In this document: one piece after another, positions 8,447 through 15,728 of the stretch
Layout: each line of letters opens with the position of its first letter
Numbering within the stretch: the first letter of the stretch is position 1
NCBI RefSeq assembly: GCF_004341105.1
Contig: NZ_SLZK01000006.1
Span: forward strand, 62,001-126,000
DNA from: Rhizobium sp. BK418
Lineage (GTDB): Bacteria; Pseudomonadota; Alphaproteobacteria; Rhizobiales; Rhizobiaceae
Length of the DNA: 64,000 bases
Direction of reading: 5' to 3'
Position numbers and translations under genes: made by a program
Notes under the pieces: model-generated
What the model saw: only the letters and a program-made list of their open reading frames with translations
Told to the model about the DNA's origin: nothing
Database searches by the model: none

Positions 8447-9259
8447 TCAGACCTGGGATGACAGGTAATCCATGCTGGCCTTCAGCGCGGAAGCGGGATC
8501 CTTCAGCGCATGGACTTCGGCTGCGAAAGGCTCGAAGGAGAATGGGCCTTTGTAGCTTGCCTGCAGCAGCGCGCGGATCTGGGCAGCATTGCCGAGCCGG
8601 TCGTCGGCAGCCACGAGTACGCGATGCGGGTCACGCATGTCGGAGACGGAAACGGCGGGATCGCTGGCACCGGAAATATGCACGAGCCCCGTCAGATGCG
8701 GGAACATCAGCGCCTCACCGGCAAGATGGTGGTGGAACGTGTCATGCACCAGCCGGAAGGTCGGCTGCGCGCCCAATGTCTCGATCACATCGGCCGCTTC
8801 CGCCTTGGAGCGCAACGAGCAGATCTCGAAGCCGAGCGGCTCGACAAGGCCAACGATGCCGGCGGCATCGAGCATCGGCCGAAGAGCTTCGAGCGACTGG
8901 CGCAGATTGGCCTGACGTTCACCATCGGCGCGGCCCGTGCCATCATTCTTCGGAACGAGAACCAAAGCCTGCGAGCCAACGGCCTTGGCATAGTCGATCA
9001 GCTCGCGGGCTTCCCTCTCGCGGGTGGCGTTCCATTCGTTGAAGCGCTGCAGCGCATTGATAGAGATGATGCCGACGCCGTGGCGGGCCGCGGCCTGCCT
9101 GATCACCTCCGGCCGCGTACCATCGAGGATGGCATTGCCGGCGAGGTCGTTGCGGATCTCCACGGCGTCAATGCCGAGCGAAACGGCAAGCGCGAAGAAA
9201 TCTTCGATCGAAAGCGCGGGCGCCGCCATGTGGTTCAGCGCGAAACGAATGGATGCCAT
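8447..9259 (-). CDS. Sugar isomerase/epimerase-type TIM-barrel protein (IolI-like)
   Basis: Member of the xylose isomerase-like TIM-barrel superfamily, 270 residues, closest in look to 2-keto-myo-inositol isomerase (IolI): FALNHMAAPALSIEDFFALA at the N-terminus and then GIDAVEIRNDL. Candidate metal and acid/base residues are E145 (LVEPLGFEI), the HDTFHHH histidines near residue 180, and FEPFAAEV near the C-terminus. The start at 9259 has a strong RBS (GAGGAGGAGA); the upstream in-frame codons lack one. A LacI-family regulator is encoded upstream on the same strand, and a MocDEF-like module lies beyond it, which supports a role in inositol or rhizopine-like catabolism. The exact substrate is unknown. 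Confidence 0.75.
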   Translation of the reverse strand: MASIRFALNHMAAPALSIEDFFALAVSLGIDAVEIRNDLAGNAILDGTRPEVIRQAAARHGVGIISINALQRFNEWNATREREARELIDYAKAVGSQALVLVPKNDGTGRADGERQANLRQSLEALRPMLDAAGIVGLVEPLGFEICSLRSKAEAADVIETLGAQPTFRLVHDTFHHHLAGEALMFPHLTGLVHISGASDPAVSVSDMRDPHRVLVAADDRLGNAAQIRALLQASYKGPFSFEPFAAEVHALKDPASALKASMDYLSSQV

Positions 9260-9360
9260 GCGAAGTCTCCTCCTCGATTCCCCGCTTTTGGACGAGGACA
9301 TTTTGAATGGTCGAGGAATGTCTACTGCAATTTGGCCAATCGTCCATCGGCGACGAGATT

Positions 9361-9388
9361 GAAAGCCTATCATTGCTGATAGAATTTC
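9361..9388. promoter_or_regulatory. 28-bp hyphenated palindrome, candidate operator
   Basis: The sequence reads GAAA-N2-CTATCA-N4-TGATAG-N2-TTTC, with every non-N base paired. It lies 102 bp upstream of the IolI-like gene and just downstream of the LacI-type gene. CTGATAG half-sites recur at 10453-10459 (CCTGATAG) and 10495-10501 (TCTGATAG), on both sides of the oxygenase/regulator divergence. One regulator controlling both transcription units is the natural reading. Confidence 0.55.
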
Positions 9389-9415: not shown

Positions 9416-10444
9416 CTAGATATTTTCAGGCAGGAAGACCTCGAAGGGCAGGAAAGACTGGCCGGGAACGGCTATCTCGCCGTTCTCCAGTGCGCCCGTC
9501 ATCAGGGAGACCACCTCCTTGCAGAGCGCCGGCAGCGGCGTGCCGATCGCCATGGTGACGATACCGTCGGCAAGACCCGCCTTGCTGTCTGATGTCAGTT
9601 CGTTGACGATGAGCACAATGCCGCCGCCGATTCCTTCCTCGCGAAATGCCGAGATCGCCCCCTCCATGCCGCCGCCGCAGACATAGAGGCCGACGAGATC
9701 GGGATGTTTCTGCAAAAGCGTCAGCGTCGCCTCATGGGTGATCTCAGGCGTTTCCAGATTGATCAGCGTTTCGACCACCTCGAAGTCGGGGGCCTCTTCG
9801 CGGAAATAGGAGCGGAAGCCCATCTCGCGCAGCTCATGACCGTGGAATCGATGACTACCGACGAAACAGGCGACCTTCCCGGGTCGGCGCGATGTCTTTG
9901 CGATCATCCAGGCGGCGGTACGGCCGACCTTGCGGTTGTTGACCCCAACATAGGCATCGCGCACACCGGTCGCGAGATCCGAAAGCAGCGAGAAAACCGG
10001 AATGCCGCGCTCCTTCAACTCCTCGACTGCTGCCGTTACCGCCGGATAATCCGGCCCGACGAGGGCAACGGCCTGGTTTCTCGTGCCAAGCAGCCTGATC
10101 TTCTCGACGATTGCCGCTGGCGTTGCGGTCGCCGGATATTCCACCTGTGTCTGGATACGCGCGGTCGTGACGTTGCGGGCAGCCGTTTCGATCTCGCGGG
10201 CGAAGGCCTGGTAGAATGGCTGCGTCGGCTTCTGCAGCAGGAAGGCCAGACGATATTGCGGCAGATCCTCGAAGACGCGTTGGCGGATCAATCCCACCGC
10301 ATGATAGCCGATCGATTGGGCCGCATCATAGACGCGTCGAGCCGTTTCCTCGCGCACCCGATGGCGGCCGTTCAGCACACGATCGACGGTCGCGACACTG
10401 ACACCGGAGGCCTGGGCGAGATCGGAAATGGTCGGACGGCGCAT
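9416..10444 (-). CDS. LacI-family transcriptional regulator
   Basis: Repressor-type regulator, 342 residues. The N-terminal helix-turn-helix and hinge are clear: RRPTISDLAQASGVSVATVD, then a hinge-helix region to about residue 50. They are followed by a periplasmic-binding-protein-like effector domain (YRLAFLLQKPTQPFYQAFAR near residue 65; LVGLYVCGGGMEGA near residue 240), which implies a sugar or cyclitol effector. It is divergent from the oxygenase gene, with about 130 bp between starts that hold CTGATAG half-sites, and it lies upstream of the IolI-like gene. It is the likely local regulator of both. Confidence 0.88.
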   Translation of the reverse strand: MRRPTISDLAQASGVSVATVDRVLNGRHRVREETARRVYDAAQSIGYHAVGLIRQRVFEDLPQYRLAFLLQKPTQPFYQAFAREIETAARNVTTARIQTQVEYPATATPAAIVEKIRLLGTRNQAVALVGPDYPAVTAAVEELKERGIPVFSLLSDLATGVRDAYVGVNNRKVGRTAAWMIAKTSRRPGKVACFVGSHRFHGHELREMGFRSYFREEAPDFEVVETLINLETPEITHEATLTLLQKHPDLVGLYVCGGGMEGAISAFREEGIGGGIVLIVNELTSDSKAGLADGIVTMAIGTPLPALCKEVVSLMTGALENGEIAVPGQSFLPFEVFLPENI

Positions 10445-10578
10445 AGTCTTTCCTGATAGTTTTCAATCACAGATGAAAGCCAATCTTGATGGCTTCTGAT
10501 AGAATATATCAAGCCTGCATTGAGCGCATTCGGAAGTCAACTTATTCTCCTGGCATGGAGCTTGGCAGGGAGGAAGGC

Positions 10579-11667
10579 ATGGCTGGCGAGGCAAGAAGGC
10601 GCGATTACAGCCTTTTGGGCGAGAGCGGACGCACGGCGGTCGAAACCGGACTGGCGGCTGCCGAATGGTACCACACCGACATCCCTCGCAAGGAGATGAA
10701 GGCGCTGATGCAGCGTTCGGACGCGCCGGCTATCCGCGATACGGCGCTGTGGTTCGGCGCAATGGCGGTTTTCGCCGGATTCGGAATCTATTTCTGGGGC
10801 TCCTGGATCGTCCTACCTTTCTTCATGGCTTACGGCGTGCTCTACGGCTCGGCCTCCGACAGCCGCTGGCATGAATGCGGCCACGGCACGGCCTTCAAGA
10901 CGCGCTGGATGAACGATGCCGTCTACCAGATCGCCTGCTTCATGATCATGCGCAATCCGGTGACCTGGCGGTGGAGCCATACGCGCCACCATACCGACAC
11001 CGTCATCGTCGGCCGTGATCCGGAAATCGCCGTCATGCGACCGCCGGACCTGCTGCGGCTGATCCTGAACTTTTTCGGCATCCACGACGTCTGGCACGCG
11101 ATGGTCGACATGCTGCGCAATGCAGCCGGTATTATCAGCGCCGAGGAGAAGACCTTCATTCCGGAAATGGAGCAGCCGAAGGCGATCCGCATCGCCCGCA
11201 TTTGGCTTGCGATCTACGTCGTCACAATAGCGCTCGCCATCTACACGGGCTCGATCCTGCCGCTGATGCTGATCGGCCTGCCGCGCCTCTACGGCGCCTG
11301 GCATCACGTTCTGACCGGCCTTTTGCAGCATGGAGGGCTTGCCGACAACGTCATCGACCACCGGCTGAACAGCCGCACCGTCTACATGAACCCGATCAGC
11401 CGCTTCATCTACTGGAATATGAACTATCACGTCGAGCATCACATGTTTCCGATGGTGCCGTACCACGCGCTGCCGAAGCTACATGCGATGATCAAACACG
11501 ACCTGCCGGCGGCCAACCAGTCGATCTGGTCCGGCTACAAGGAGATGATTCCGGCCTTCCTGCGTCAGCTTCGCAACGAGGACTATTTCCTGAAGCGGGA
11601 ACTGCCGCCGACAGCGCGCCCCTATCGCGAGGAATTCCACGCCGAACTTGCGGCCGCAGCCCAATAA
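10579..11667 (+). CDS. Membrane di-iron oxygenase/fatty-acid-desaturase-like protein (MocD-like)
   Basis: Integral-membrane di-iron enzyme of the fatty acid desaturase superfamily, 362 residues. The three histidine boxes are complete: HECGHGT at residue 98, HTRHH at residue 134 and HVEHH at residue 284. Hydrophobic segments near residues 57-90 and 215-240 flank them. It is followed by a Rieske ferredoxin and a ferredoxin reductase, the same order as mocDEF of Sinorhizobium rhizopine catabolism, where the three act as an O-demethylating oxygenase. The start at 10579 was chosen for GGGAGG five bases upstream; an in-frame ATG at 10486 has no RBS. A true lipid desaturase is the main alternative. 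Confidence 0.75.
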   Translation: MAGEARRRDYSLLGESGRTAVETGLAAAEWYHTDIPRKEMKALMQRSDAPAIRDTALWFGAMAVFAGFGIYFWGSWIVLPFFMAYGVLYGSASDSRWHECGHGTAFKTRWMNDAVYQIACFMIMRNPVTWRWSHTRHHTDTVIVGRDPEIAVMRPPDLLRLILNFFGIHDVWHAMVDMLRNAAGIISAEEKTFIPEMEQPKAIRIARIWLAIYVVTIALAIYTGSILPLMLIGLPRLYGAWHHVLTGLLQHGGLADNVIDHRLNSRTVYMNPISRFIYWNMNYHVEHHMFPMVPYHALPKLHAMIKHDLPAANQSIWSGYKEMIPAFLRQLRNEDYFLKRELPPTARPYREEFHAELAAAAQ

Positions 11668-11701
11668 ACAGTTCAAGAACAGGATCAAGGGAGGAAACGA
11701 G

Positions 11702-12016
11702 ATGAGCGGAAACTGGATCGAGGTTTGCGGTAAGGACGAGATCGACGAGGAGGACGTCATCCGTTTCGATCATGGCGGCCGCACGTTCGCGGTCTATCGC
11801 AGCCCGGATGATGAATTCTTTGCCACCGACGGGCTCTGCACCCATGAGCAGATCCATCTCGCCGACGGGCTTGTCATGGACGATATCATCGAGTGTCCCA
11901 AGCACAATGGCCGCTTCAACTACAGGACTGGCGAAGCCAAGGGGGCGCCGGTCTGCGTCAATCTGAAGACCTATCCCGTCAAGGTCAAAGACGGCGCCAT
12001 CTTCATTGCGATCTGA
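11702..12016 (+). CDS. Rieske-type 2Fe-2S ferredoxin (MocE-like)
   Basis: Small soluble electron carrier, 104 residues, with the Rieske ligands C46-T-H48 (CTHEQIHLADG) and C65-P-K-H68. It passes electrons from the reductase encoded next to the upstream membrane oxygenase. The ATG at 11702 has the RBS GGAGG (in AGGGAGGAAACGAG); an earlier in-frame start would lie inside the oxygenase gene. The reductase gene follows after 8 bp. Such ferredoxins also serve ring-hydroxylating dioxygenases, but here the partner is a desaturase-type oxygenase. Confidence 0.88.
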   Translation: MSGNWIEVCGKDEIDEEDVIRFDHGGRTFAVYRSPDDEFFATDGLCTHEQIHLADGLVMDDIIECPKHNGRFNYRTGEAKGAPVCVNLKTYPVKVKDGAIFIAI

Positions 12017-12024
12017 GGTGCGCC

Positions 12025-13251
12025 ATGGCCCATTTCGTCATCATAGGGGCGGGAGAATGCGGTGCACGCGCCGCCTTCGCGCTCCGGGAAAAGGGGTTTG
12101 ACGGCAAGATCACGCTCGTCGGCTCGGAACCGCACCCGCCCTATGAGCGACCGCCGCTTTCCAAGGCCGGTTTGTCGGGCAGCGTCGATCCAAAATTCAT
12201 CGCGACGCACGAAACCTATGCCGCGGGCAACATCCGGCTGCTGACCGACGTAACGGCAACGGGTCTCGATGCCGAGGCCCACACCGTCACCCTGTCGGAT
12301 GGCGGTCATCTTGCTTATGATCGGCTGCTACTTGCGACGGGCGCCAGCGCCCGCAATTTCCCGAATGCTCCGGCAAACAGCAGCCATATCCGCTCGCTGC
12401 GCACCCATCATGATGCGATCACCTTGCGTGCAATACTGCAGCCAGGTAGGCGGCTTGCCGTCATCGGCGGCGGTTTCATCGGTCTGGAGGTTGCGGCTAC
12501 CGCCCGCCAGCTCGGCGCGGATGTGGTTCTCATCGAAGGGCTGGAGCGGGTGCTGAAGCGGGGCGTTCCCGAAGATATCGCGCATCTGATCAGCGAACGC
12601 CATCGTGCCGAAGGCGTCGATCTGCGTTGCAGCGCTTCCATCGAGACGCTCTCGGAACGGGAAGGCAAGGCCGTTATCCGACTTTCGTCCGGCGAGACGA
12701 TCGAGGCGGATCTCGCGCTGATCGGCATCGGCGCGCGGCCGAATATCGAACTCGCGGAAGCTGCAGGGCTTGAGATCGACAACGGGATTGCCGTCGATGA
12801 CCGGCTGCGTACGTCGGCGCTTGATATCTTTGCCGCCGGTGACTGCTGCTCCTTTCCGCTTGATATCTATGGCGGTCGGCGGGTGCGGCTGGAATCCTGG
12901 CGCAACGCGCAGGAGCAGGGCACCCTTGCTGCCGCCAACATGCTTGGCGCCGACATGCCGATCTCCGCGGTGCCGTGGTTCTGGTCGGATCAATATGACA
13001 TGACGCTGCAGATCGCGGGACTTGCCGATGGCGCGGTCACGCATCTGCGCCGCGATCTCGGCGAGGGCGCCTTCATTCTCTTCCATCTCAATGCCGAAGG
13101 CCGGCTCCTTGCCGCAAGCGGCATTGGGCCGGGCAATGCGGTAGCGCGCGACATCCGGCTGGCCGAAATGCTGATATCAGCACGCGCCTATCCCGATCCT
13201 GCCGCGCTCACCGCCAGCAACGTCAAGCTGAAGACGCTGCTCGCCGCCTGA
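12025..13251 (+). CDS. FAD-dependent ferredoxin reductase (MocF-like)
   Basis: NAD(P)H:ferredoxin oxidoreductase of the pyridine nucleotide-disulfide type, 408 residues. It has two dinucleotide-binding motifs, VIIGAGECGARAAFAL at residue 4 (FAD) and LAVIGGGFIGLEVAATA near residue 145 (NAD), and the FAD-contacting segment DIFAAGDCC near residue 270. PYERPPLSKAGL near residue 40 is typical of rhodocoxin/putidaredoxin reductases. It lies between the Rieske ferredoxin (8 bp) and the PanB-like gene (33 bp) and completes a three-component oxygenase system. Confidence 0.88.
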   Translation: MAHFVIIGAGECGARAAFALREKGFDGKITLVGSEPHPPYERPPLSKAGLSGSVDPKFIATHETYAAGNIRLLTDVTATGLDAEAHTVTLSDGGHLAYDRLLLATGASARNFPNAPANSSHIRSLRTHHDAITLRAILQPGRRLAVIGGGFIGLEVAATARQLGADVVLIEGLERVLKRGVPEDIAHLISERHRAEGVDLRCSASIETLSEREGKAVIRLSSGETIEADLALIGIGARPNIELAEAAGLEIDNGIAVDDRLRTSALDIFAAGDCCSFPLDIYGGRRVRLESWRNAQEQGTLAAANMLGADMPISAVPWFWSDQYDMTLQIAGLADGAVTHLRRDLGEGAFILFHLNAEGRLLAASGIGPGNAVARDIRLAEMLISARAYPDPAALTASNVKLKTLLAA

Positions 13252-13284
13252 GAATTCCCCATATCGGCCCAAAAGGACATTGCG

Positions 13285-14088
13285 ATGAAGAAACATAATC
13301 GCGCGACGGTCGCAGATCTGCTTGCACTCAAGGGAAAGCGCCAGCTGACCATGCTGCGCATTACCTCGCTCGAGGAGGCAGAGGCCGCCGAAAAGGCCGG
13401 CATCGATATGGTCTCGGTGCCGCCTGCCCTGCTTGGTCCGGCTTTTCGCGAGGCAGCACCGTCGCCTTTTGCCATTCCCGGCCTTGAATATGGCGACCAT
13501 GTCTCCGCTGAAGACTACATGCGCGAGGCTTTCAAGGCATTGAAGACGGGCGGCGATGCCGTCTATTGCGCCGCGAGCCTGCAGACCATCCGCCGCATGC
13601 GCGACGAGGGCATTCCCGTCTGCGGCCATGTCGGCCTCATTCCATCGAAAGCCACCTGGACCGGCGGTTTCCGTGCCGTCGGCAAGACGGCGGCGAGCGC
13701 CTTCGAAGTCTGGCGCCAAACGAAGGCATTGGAAGAGGCAGGCGCTTTCGCAGCCGAGATCGAAGTGGTTCCCGGCGATGTCGCCGAGGCGATTTCCGAC
13801 AACACGTCGATGCTGATGATATCGATGGGTGCAGGCCGTGGCTGCGATGCGCAATATCTCTTTGCCGACGACGTGCTCGGCTCCAACCGCGACCACACTC
13901 CGCGCCATGCGAAGATCTATCGTAACTTTGCGGCCGAATATGACCGGCTGCAGCGCGAACGCGTCGCCGCCTTCAGTGAACTCGCCGAAGATATCCGCTC
14001 CGGCGCCTATCCGGAAAAACGCCACCTCGTCGGCATCGACGAGGCCGAGTTGCGCAATTTCCTGCATCGGCTGGAAGGGGAACCGTGA
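13285..14088 (+). CDS. Divergent ketopantoate hydroxymethyltransferase (PanB)-like protein
   Basis: PanB/PEP-mutase-type TIM barrel, 267 residues. The best family landmark is IPVCGHVGLIPSKATWTGGF near residue 112, which matches the conserved stretch of PanB. EIEVVPGDVA near residue 155 keeps the catalytic glutamate. By eye, the region holding the two Mg-binding aspartates and the substrate lysine of E. coli PanB is changed: VGDS is replaced by VSVPP and KIEGG by VYCAAS, with a loop deleted between them. True PanB activity is therefore doubtful. It ends the mocDEF-like operon, so a role in one-carbon handling after demethylation is possible but unproven. Confidence 0.7.
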   Translation: MKKHNRATVADLLALKGKRQLTMLRITSLEEAEAAEKAGIDMVSVPPALLGPAFREAAPSPFAIPGLEYGDHVSAEDYMREAFKALKTGGDAVYCAASLQTIRRMRDEGIPVCGHVGLIPSKATWTGGFRAVGKTAASAFEVWRQTKALEEAGAFAAEIEVVPGDVAEAISDNTSMLMISMGAGRGCDAQYLFADDVLGSNRDHTPRHAKIYRNFAAEYDRLQRERVAAFSELAEDIRSGAYPEKRHLVGIDEAELRNFLHRLEGEP

Positions 14089-14121: not shown

Positions 14122-14432
14122 TCAGTGCAGAGGCGTTTCGCCGAGCCGTGCCTCCACATTCATTCGCTTATGCAGGATAGGAACGATTTCGGTCCGGCCA
14201 TTTTCAATCGCGCGATAAAATAGGAATGTGAGTTCACATTGAGCTTAAATAGGCCCGGCTAAATATCGTCAATCGGCCGTCCTGTCCGGGCACCCGCACT
14301 CAAGTCTTCGCAAGCCTTTCGGATATCGTTGACATAGCGATCCGCCTGCTCTTCGCCCCAATTCTCAAAAGTATAATCCCAGATATTGTCGAGATCGGCG
14401 ACGGCGGCCCTTGAAAGGATGTAGCCTTTCAT
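14122..14432 (-). pseudogene. parE: ParE-type toxin, broken by a stop codon and a frameshift
   Basis: The minus strand reads MKGYILSRAAVADLDNIWDY and on to GRPIDDI, a normal RelE/ParE toxin start. A TAG at 14259-14261 then stops it after 57 codons. The reading continues as PGLFKLNVNSH and, after loss of one base near 14236, as FLFYRAIENGRTEIVPILHK to a proper end at 14122. The total length, 311 bp, is one base short of 104 codons. Two separate lesions make it inactive as a full-length toxin. The ATG overlaps the parD stop (ATGA), as in intact pairs. Confidence 0.85.
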
Positions 14433-14674
14433 CTTGCTCGCTTCCGACGCTTTCGGTCGAGGAATGTGTCGAAATCGAAATCCTCGGCACCGCCGCTATC
14501 GATGCCGATACCGATTGCATCGCGTAGCGCCTTCACCTTGGCCTCATGCTCCTCCAGAAGCCGCAGACCGGCCCTGATGACTTCGCTCGCCGAGCCATAG
14601 CGGCCTTCAATGATTTGTCGTTCGACGAAACCTGCAAAATGATCGCCCAACGCAATCGATGTATTTTTCGACAT
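14429..14674 (-). CDS. parD: ParD-family antitoxin
   Basis: Ribbon-helix-helix antitoxin, 81 residues: SIALGDHFAGFVERQI at the N-terminus, then GRYGSASEVIRAGLRLLEEH, the classic ParD DNA-binding signature, and a charged toxin-binding tail. The start at 14674 has RBS AGGAGG. It is translationally coupled (ATGA) to a disrupted parE, so it is probably an orphan antitoxin now. It may still repress its own promoter. Confidence 0.88.
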   Translation of the reverse strand: MSKNTSIALGDHFAGFVERQIIEGRYGSASEVIRAGLRLLEEHEAKVKALRDAIGIGIDSGGAEDFDFDTFLDRKRRKRAR

Positions 14675-14690
14675 GAGAGCCTCCTGAATG

Positions 14691-14717
14691 TTACCAATAT
14701 ATACCAATTTTTGGTAA
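14691..14717. promoter_or_regulatory. Candidate ParD operator
   Basis: Seventeen bases upstream of the parD start, TTACCAA (14691-14697) and TTGGTAA (14711-14717) form an inverted repeat, with a further TACCAA half-site at 14702-14707 inside an AT-rich stretch. Autoregulation at such a site is the rule for ParD-type antitoxins. Binding here is inferred. Confidence 0.5.
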
Positions 14718-14831: not shown

Positions 14832-15728
14832 ATGACGATAGGCTTTGCACATGCGGAACTGATTGCGGTTCTCGTCGCTGTGACGGGCGACGAGCCGCGC
14901 GTCATGACGATCCGCAATGGCGATGCGCTTCCATCAGGCCCTTTCGAAATGGGCCATCGCACGCTGCAGTCGGGCCTTCGCGAATGGATCCAGGAACAGA
15001 CTGCCCATCCGGTCGGCTTTCTGGAGCAGCTCTACACCTTTGCCGACCGCGACCGGAATAATGATATCCAGGGCGGTCGCACCATCTCGATCAGCTATCT
15101 CGGCCTCGTCAACGAACAGTCGGGAGCCGGGCGGCCGGGCTGGCACGGCTGGTATGAATATTTCCCCTGGGAGGATCATCGCGACGGGCGTCCGGAAATT
15201 CTCGATGAACTCATCGCGCGGCTGCGGGGCTGGGCCGATGCCGAGCCTGCCAAGCGCGAATACAGGCATCGCCGCGCCGATTTCACCTTCGGGCTCGATG
15301 GCGCCAGATGGAATGAGGATTTGACGCTGCAGCGCTATGAGCTGCTCTACGAGGCAGGTCTTGTTGCCGAGGCCGGTTGCGGCAAGGACGACAATCTCGG
15401 CCGGCCGATGTTTGCCGATCACCGACGGATTCTGGCAACCGGCATCGCCAGGCTTCGCGCCAAGATCAAATATCGCCCGGTCGTTTTCGAGCTCATGCCC
15501 GAAAGCTTCACCCTGCTGCAATTGCAGCGCGCCGTCGAGGCTCTGGCCGGCCTGACGCTGCACAAGCAAAACTTCCGCCGCCTGATCGAACAGCAGGAAC
15601 TGGTGGAGGAGACCGGCGAGGCAACAAGCGAAACCGGCGGCCGGCCGGCGAAGCTCTTCCGCTTCCGCCAGACCATTCTCGAAGAGCGCGCGCTCGCCGG
15701 AACGAAATTACCGCTCTCCCGCAATTGA
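14832..15728 (+). CDS. nadQ: NadQ-type transcriptional regulator of NAD synthesis (Nudix-like plus winged helix)
   Basis: Predicted repressor of the adjacent nadABC operon, 298 residues. The N-terminal part (about 1-150) resembles a Nudix hydrolase domain without a clear Nudix box: HAELIAVLVAVTGDEPRVMT, then VGFLEQLYTFADRDR. The C-terminal part is a winged helix with PESFTLLQLQRAVEALAGL and KQNFRRLIEQQELVE, the arrangement seen in NrtR/NadQ regulators. It lies directly upstream of nadA in the same direction, with two matching 21-bp operator candidates in the 71-bp gap. The RBS is weak, so the start is less certain than the identity. Confidence 0.82.
   Translation: MTIGFAHAELIAVLVAVTGDEPRVMTIRNGDALPSGPFEMGHRTLQSGLREWIQEQTAHPVGFLEQLYTFADRDRNNDIQGGRTISISYLGLVNEQSGAGRPGWHGWYEYFPWEDHRDGRPEILDELIARLRGWADAEPAKREYRHRRADFTFGLDGARWNEDLTLQRYELLYEAGLVAEAGCGKDDNLGRPMFADHRRILATGIARLRAKIKYRPVVFELMPESFTLLQLQRAVEALAGLTLHKQNFRRLIEQQELVEETGEATSETGGRPAKLFRFRQTILEERALAGTKLPLSRN

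Follow-up and report, generated by a model that had tools for sequence, protein, structure and literature searches.

What reaction is left to a protein that belongs to the family of the pantothenate enzyme PanB (PF02548, EC 2.1.2.11) and has lost most of the residues with which PanB holds its metal and its substrate? The question is raised by one gene in a 64,000-nucleotide (nt) stretch of the Rhizobium sp. BK418 genome (contig NZ_SLZK01000006.1, positions 62,001 to 126,000; hereafter the window, from whose first letter all coordinates are counted). Its product, here termed PanBL, belongs to a large conserved family set apart from true PanB, and the analysis supports its being a divergent PanB that would no longer make ketopantoate. 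What is new here is that PanBL is tied to oxygenase operons across the Alphaproteobacteria, a setting in which it may load formaldehyde released by demethylation onto tetrahydrofolate (THF). The gene itself is as follows.

13285..14088, plus strand: PanB-like protein PanBL (P0001), 267 amino acids (aa), ATG start, defined from its open reading frame (ORF), Pfam, NCBIfam and a profile alignment

The first-pass annotation, made from the letters alone, had read this ORF as a PanB-family barrel, and the database comparisons agree. At an expect value (E) of up to 0.001 the only Pfam match of P0001 is PF02548 (Pantoate_transf; 141 bits, cut-off 28.7), which covers residues 62-244 and leaves the N-terminal part of the profile without a counterpart. 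The NCBIfam panB models are not reached, P0001 scoring less than half of each cut-off (TIGR00222, 102.3 against 207.55 bits; NF001452, 126 against 272 bits). A sequence search of the PDB gave five significant matches, all of them PanB and all with alignments starting at residue 52 or later, the remaining four of the nine matches listed having E values of 0.45 or worse. When profiles of the two groups (167 PanBL and 20 PanB sequences) were aligned globally, the probability was 100 and E 7e-63 over 240 columns with 25% identity. A true PanB is encoded on the same contig, scoring 334 bits in a whole-genome search that gave PanBL 132. Its gene forms a tandem pair with panC (PF02569) away from the PanBL block, which itself contains no panC.

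The same annotation had held that the PanB signature and the catalytic glutamate are kept while the segments carrying the Mg-binding aspartates and the substrate lysine are replaced, and the family alignment upholds both halves of that statement. In E. coli PanB, Asp45 and Asp84 are presumably the Mg ligands, Lys112 and Glu114 the substrate residues, and Glu181 the catalytic residue. Residues were counted in sets made non-redundant at 80% (63 PanBLs and 12 PanBs), the profile alignment, counts and tree being built from PanBL matches above 200 bits with one fragment (L189) left out. The replaced segments are VSVPP (residues 43-47) and VYCAAS (93-98). Asp45 aligns with P47 (Asp in 3 of 63 PanBLs), Asp84 with G66 (Asp in none of the 63 versus 8 of 12 PanBs), Lys112 with Y94 (Lys in none) and Glu114 with A96 (Glu in none versus 8 of 12 PanBs). 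The losses are accompanied by a 20-residue deletion directly after the strand-2 (metal) loop and by three further missing residues near E. coli position 116. PanBL nevertheless retains the GHxGLxP motif within the PanB signature IPVCGHVGLIPS (residues 110-121), the histidine equivalent to His136 (H115, in 63 of 63) and the glutamate equivalent to Glu181 (E160, likewise in 63 of 63). A second glutamate two residues ahead of it, E158, is found in all 63 PanBLs versus 4 of 12 PanBs, and D188 and D196 are also invariant in the 63. Among 32 positions invariant in PanB, the ones that 80% or more of the PanBLs share number 2 of 15 within E. coli residues 1-125 and 15 of 17 within residues 126-264, which indicates that one half of the sequence has been rewritten and the other held. 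The loop column of E. coli Ser46 carries Asp or Glu in 35 of 63 PanBLs but Ala (A48) in P0001, so that a different metal site is possible in other members of the family. The metal requirement and decameric assembly of PanB itself have been described (PMC7770189).

That such a protein is unlikely to serve pantothenate synthesis, as the first-pass annotation also proposed, has been borne out in print for its R. etli orthologue. A panB mutant of R. etli CFN42 is auxotrophic despite a second 'panB', RHE_PE00443, on plasmid p42e (Villasenor et al., 2011; PMC3082293), and a constitutive clone of RHE_PE00443 failed to complement the mutant (reported there as data not shown). The same authors counted 5 of 12 active-site residues in this protein and found its metal domain undetectable, and in the part of the paper available no other function or operon role is proposed for it. 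Searched against p42e, P0001 gives a single match, 86% identical and in the same gene order. RHE_PE00443 is taken as the PanBL orthologue on this basis, the old locus tag being linked to it by plasmid and uniqueness. The absence of pantothenate synthesis is thus already published and not a new result. R. etli has been credited with 'panB, two copies' (PMC7142369), an example of how the label inflates gene counts.

PanBL is a large, conserved family. An order-level search of 397 genomes, the window's own included, found it in 38, with 60 genes of which one is a 155-bit fragment. Full-length matches scored at least 261 bits, and the other matches among those listed scored at most 139 bits and began at profile position 40 or later, so that the profile separates PanBL from PanB. 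With E up to 1e-42, PanBL was found in 16 of 289 genomes of a class sample and 19 of 398 of a phylum sample (both overlapping in genomes with the order sample), in full-length form down to 219 bits. All PanBL-bearing genomes of these two samples belong to the window's own class, and the spread through the Alphaproteobacteria includes small genomes of 1.4-1.6 Mb. The closest relatives of the locus come from Rhizobium, and no relatives were found in the viral contigs scanned. In a quick maximum-likelihood tree PanBL forms one clade against PanB (Shimodaira-Hasegawa-like approximate likelihood-ratio test, SH-aLRT, 100). A reading of PanBL as a decaying gene was rejected because it forms a conserved clade distinct from true PanB. 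One 1.6-Mb genome (G889) has four PanBL copies, two of which (locus L201) stand in tandem about 12 nt apart beside divergent PhyH genes. Fusions of PanBL with a partner were sought in seven open frames and none is claimed; at one locus (L156) coding-looking sequence upstream runs in frame into PanBL and by eye is TIM-barrel-like rather than an oxygenase, which may be a fusion or a missed stop.

In the window PanBL is the fourth gene of an operon that is read divergently from a LacI-family regulator gene and resembles the mocDEF genes, which are involved in rhizopine catabolism (PMC10107442). The other members of the cluster are listed below.

8447..9373, minus strand: xylose-isomerase-like triosephosphate isomerase (TIM)-barrel protein (PF01261), often linked to the cluster
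9416..10444, minus strand: divergent LacI-family regulator (PF00356) with a Peripla_BP_4 sensor domain (PF13407), syntenic in loci L003-L082
10579..11667, plus strand: MocD-like oxygenase of the FA_desaturase family (PF00487, 130 bits), ATG at 10579 (R. etli orthologue 1089 bp; longest ORF 10486-11667)
11702..12016, plus strand: MocE-family Rieske ferredoxin (TIGR02377, 185 bits, cut-off 136; longest ORF 11648-12016)
12025..13251, plus strand: MocF-like flavin adenine dinucleotide (FAD) ferredoxin reductase with Pyr_redox_2 (PF07992) and Reductase_C (PF14759), its start placed to match the 1227 bp of the R. etli orthologue (longest ORF 11893-13251)
13252..13284, plus strand: intergenic gap of 33 nt between the MocF stop and the PanBL start, with the Shine-Dalgarno-like AAAAGGACA

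The short gap with its Shine-Dalgarno-like stretch suggests that MocF and PanBL lie on one transcript, and the LacI-family gene is likely to regulate the MocDEF-PanBL operon. Both the gene order and the match to the MocE family model recall the rhizopine system, from which the window differs in carrying LacI and not MocR; R. indicum joins PanBL to a MocR-like regulator and MocDEF. No fourth gene is named for mocDEF in the available part of the rhizopine paper (PMC10107442). The window, R. etli (p42e) and R. johnstonii (pRL11) have in common the block TIM barrel-LacI-MocD-MocE-MocF-PanBL-NrtR-like-nadA, the NrtR-like gene being present in R. johnstonii despite its different label in the record. 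In the two relatives cob genes and nadBC flank the block, and Pfam confirms nadA, nadC and a pair of corrin-type methylases at the equivalent sides in the window. In S. meliloti LacI-MocDEF-PanBL is present in a different neighbourhood (SMb20817-SMb20820), and no inducer is named for it in the portions of the transcription literature found.

The association with oxygenases extends well beyond this operon type. In the 80 close loci (the best 80 of 253 found), FA_desaturase, ferredoxin and reductase genes all lie on the PanBL strand within 5 kb in 78. A wide set comprised 79 loci, taken with flanks of up to 6 kb around each PanBL match outside the window (some ending at contig edges), and was scanned with hidden Markov models (HMMs) built from neighbour clusters named by Pfam; 19 canonical panB loci, mostly from other genomes, were treated in the same way as controls. 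Within 5 kb and on the strand of the gene, an oxygenase HMM scored above 200 bits at 58 of 79 PanBL loci versus 0 of 19 true panB loci (Fisher value 1.5e-9, which overstates independence because the PanBL loci are related). After removal of redundancy the count is 43 of 61, on either strand it is 63 of 79, and without the bit threshold it is 59 of 79 versus 3 of 19. Four unrelated oxygenase families are represented beside PanBL, namely FA_desaturase (47 of 79), FA_hydroxylase (9), PhyH (3) and Rieske (2); at three loci (L178, L180 and L198) an FA_hydroxylase gene lies upstream on the same strand, further out than the stretch fetched. The tree requires at least 10 switches of partner type, or 9 if three rows that carry two types are set aside, counted over the 46 of 63 PanBL rows with a recognised partner (the 17 lacking one being left out). 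These repeated changes suggest that the shared element is what the oxygenases release. Their substrates probably differ, since the neighbours do: in a downstream-neighbour set in which 22 of 30 genes were taken, an OpuAC glycine-betaine-type binding protein follows PanBL at one locus (L193), and Gfo/Idh dehydrogenases and TIM-barrel isomerase-like proteins follow it at others.

A link to folate is provided by the genes that follow PanBL in some relatives. FolD and PurU oxidise methylene-THF to formate. Among the close loci purU is found in 17 of 80 and folD in 7 of 80, whereas both are absent from the 19 true panB loci. Across the three sets the purU matches above 100 bits are without exception on the strand of PanBL, and all start 48-160 nt past the PanBL match but for the one at L198 (2158 nt); a weak match of 41 bits at L175 was left out of the counts. 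The order in A. tumefaciens HAMBI 105 is MocD-MocE-MocF-PanBL-purU-folD, and in R. indicum PanBL is followed by purU. The genome of the window encodes FolD, PurU and formate-tetrahydrofolate ligase (FTHFS) elsewhere. In the chloromethane pathway FolD and PurU form the tetrahydrofolate (H4F) oxidation module (PMC3621897).

Taken with the residues, this context backs, as a possibility, the suggestion of the first-pass annotation that a new reaction runs on the old barrel, and a specific reaction may be proposed. Electrons from NAD(P)H would pass through the reductase and the Rieske ferredoxin to the oxygenase, and MocDEF would oxidatively strip a methyl group. The substrate is probably an inositol or a sugar-like compound that carries a methyl group, or else a methylated amine; from rhizopine MocDEF presumably removes the O-methyl group. 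Demethylation, which is the probable chemistry of the partner oxygenase here, would leave the one-carbon (C1) unit either as formaldehyde or as the CH2OH of a hemiacetal or hemiaminal. Capture of this unit by THF to give 5,10-methylene-THF would then be catalysed by PanBL, the PanB reaction being reduced to its folate half with the ketoacid omitted, and FolD and PurU, adjoining in some relatives and encoded elsewhere in the genome of the window, would oxidise the product to formate. If an enzyme had nothing to do but load formaldehyde on THF, a PanB with its ketoacid and metal side lost and its other side kept is what would be expected. That PanBL carries out this loading is given very nearly an even chance. 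The fuller proposal is a tentative one, put clearly below even: PanBL would be a metal-independent, THF-dependent formaldehyde-activating enzyme and the C1 module by which at least four oxygenase families feed FolD and PurU. It would thus be the folate counterpart of Fae and Gfa, which act with tetrahydromethanopterin (H4MPT) and glutathione, respectively. The analogy would lie in faster capture of formaldehyde by a carrier, the difference in the carrier, which for PanBL would be THF. No Fae or Gfa domain was matched in P0001 in the Pfam search described above.

Capture of formaldehyde by THF has been described as spontaneous (PMC8879981). He et al. (2020; PMC7073904) derived that the spontaneous condensation is far too slow for C1 growth, named PanB as a possible promiscuous catalyst, and speculated that a variant of the formaldehyde-activating enzyme accepting THF exists or could be evolved. 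A side activity of PanB that cleaves folate has also been proposed (PMC4814558), and SAR11 strain HTCC1062 is said to have THF-linked oxidation and no formaldehyde-activating enzyme (PMC3160333). Nothing in the literature searched assigns PanBL a function or ties a PanB homologue to demethylases or MocDEF-type operons.

Several observations weigh against formaldehyde loading. In E. coli a double deletion of panB and ltaE left formaldehyde- and THF-dependent growth unchanged (PMC7073904), so that true PanB does not visibly catalyse the condensation. No PanB structure found is described with folate, which makes the equation of the kept half with the folate half an inference. A structural model from AlphaFold2, based on P0001 and 59 related loci (76-94% identical; drawn from 61 of the 80 close loci after L060 and L066, with an internal stop in the coordinates chosen, had been set aside), was discarded at a mean predicted local distance difference test (pLDDT) of 42.5 and a predicted template modelling score (pTM) of 0.39. 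In the wide set the 5 kb around PanBL hold no same-strand oxygenase above 200 bits at 21 of 79 loci (16 of 79 when both strands are considered), some PanBLs sit in unrelated contexts, purU exceeds 100 bits at just 2 of 79 loci, and genes for sugar isomerases and dehydrogenases, too, are common nearby. The genome of the window lacks the purU adjacency and encodes a glutathione-dependent formaldehyde dehydrogenase as well. Finally, of the MocE-family ferredoxins above the family cut-off in 249 genomes, 27 of 56 have no PanBL within 7 kb (two of the 27 lying less than 500 bases from a contig start); as about half of the MocE clusters do without it, such oxygenases can work in its absence, and PanBL would be an accessory and not a requirement. 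In 21 of these 27 clusters (L245-L264 and L240), searched for another formaldehyde enzyme in place of PanBL, no match to PanBL, purU, folD or glutathione formaldehyde-dehydrogenase was seen in the stretches fetched. Replacement therefore finds no support, and the check does not discriminate, because purU is also rare in the wide PanBL set. The last of these clusters is in the genome of the window (L240, contig C4, 363000-374000), and comprises LacI, an FA_hydroxylase-type oxygenase, a ferredoxin, a reductase and a weak TIM-barrel match, with a choline-sulfatase-like gene nearby.

The neighbours of PanBL are also what gives the principal alternative its weight, namely that PanBL acts on the carbon skeleton of the oxygenase product in sugar or inositol catabolism, as a lyase, isomerase or hydrolase that either needs no metal or has gained a new one. 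Gfo/Idh/MocA dehydrogenases (22 of 79 loci), short-chain dehydrogenases/reductases (SDRs; 12), DUF4432 proteins (11) and ATP-binding cassette (ABC) transporter ATPases (29) are encoded within 5 kb on the PanBL strand. Families of ribose-type permeases and binding proteins are present, as are TIM-barrel isomerase-like proteins, and family-wide invariants such as E158 and D188 also speak for this alternative. One conserved pocket would, however, have to serve the products of four oxygenase families, the betaine-type context of L193 among them, and the placing of purU and folD directly downstream would go unexplained; a role on the carbon skeleton is accordingly thought unlikely, if well worth keeping in view. 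The purU and folD genes also tell against PanBL working in the synthetic direction, in which methylene-THF would hydroxymethylate an acceptor other than that of PanB. Synthesis is the direction of PanB itself (PMC7770189) and the changed acceptor half could mean a new acceptor, but the context, with its regulators, uptake systems and oxygenases, looks catabolic and an adjoining FolD-PurU would drain the methylene-THF, which makes this alternative improbable.

Loss of the metal ligands and of the substrate lysine, in a protein for which no activity is known, could mean that PanBL is a non-catalytic scaffold or sensor that binds folate or formaldehyde; H115, E158, E160, D188 and D196 are nonetheless conserved in 63 of 63 sequences, seemingly more than a scaffold needs, and little probability is attached to this idea. 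That PanBL is an ordinary or back-up PanB for pantothenate agrees with its automatic annotation as 3-methyl-2-oxobutanoate hydroxymethyltransferase and with the PF02548 match. It is very improbable indeed, given the missing ligands, the NCBIfam models not reached and the true PanB and PanC encoded elsewhere, and the R. etli work already refutes it for the orthologue of 86% identity, within the conditions used there (PMC3082293).

Two features of the window lie between PanBL and nadA. The minus strand (14259-14707) carries a gene for a ParD-type antitoxin (PF03693, 14429-14707) and, after it, an ORF of 57 aa (14259-14432). The latter aligns with the ParE toxin family over positions 1-48 of 89 and no further, which gives the impression of a truncated toxin; the annotated blocks of R. 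etli and R. johnstonii show no pair of this kind at the corresponding point. On the plus strand (14832-15728) a regulator-like protein precedes nadA, its Pfam matches being confined to an NrtR winged helix and AraR_C in the C-terminal part, with some 200 N-terminal residues free of any match at E up to 0.001.

Formaldehyde loading by PanBL, if correct, bears on a step of C1 metabolism that is usually drawn as spontaneous, the capture of formaldehyde by THF, for which PanBL would be a concrete candidate catalyst. The 'panB' annotation of a sizeable family would also be corrected, a mislabel that inflates the count of pantothenate genes in rhizobia.
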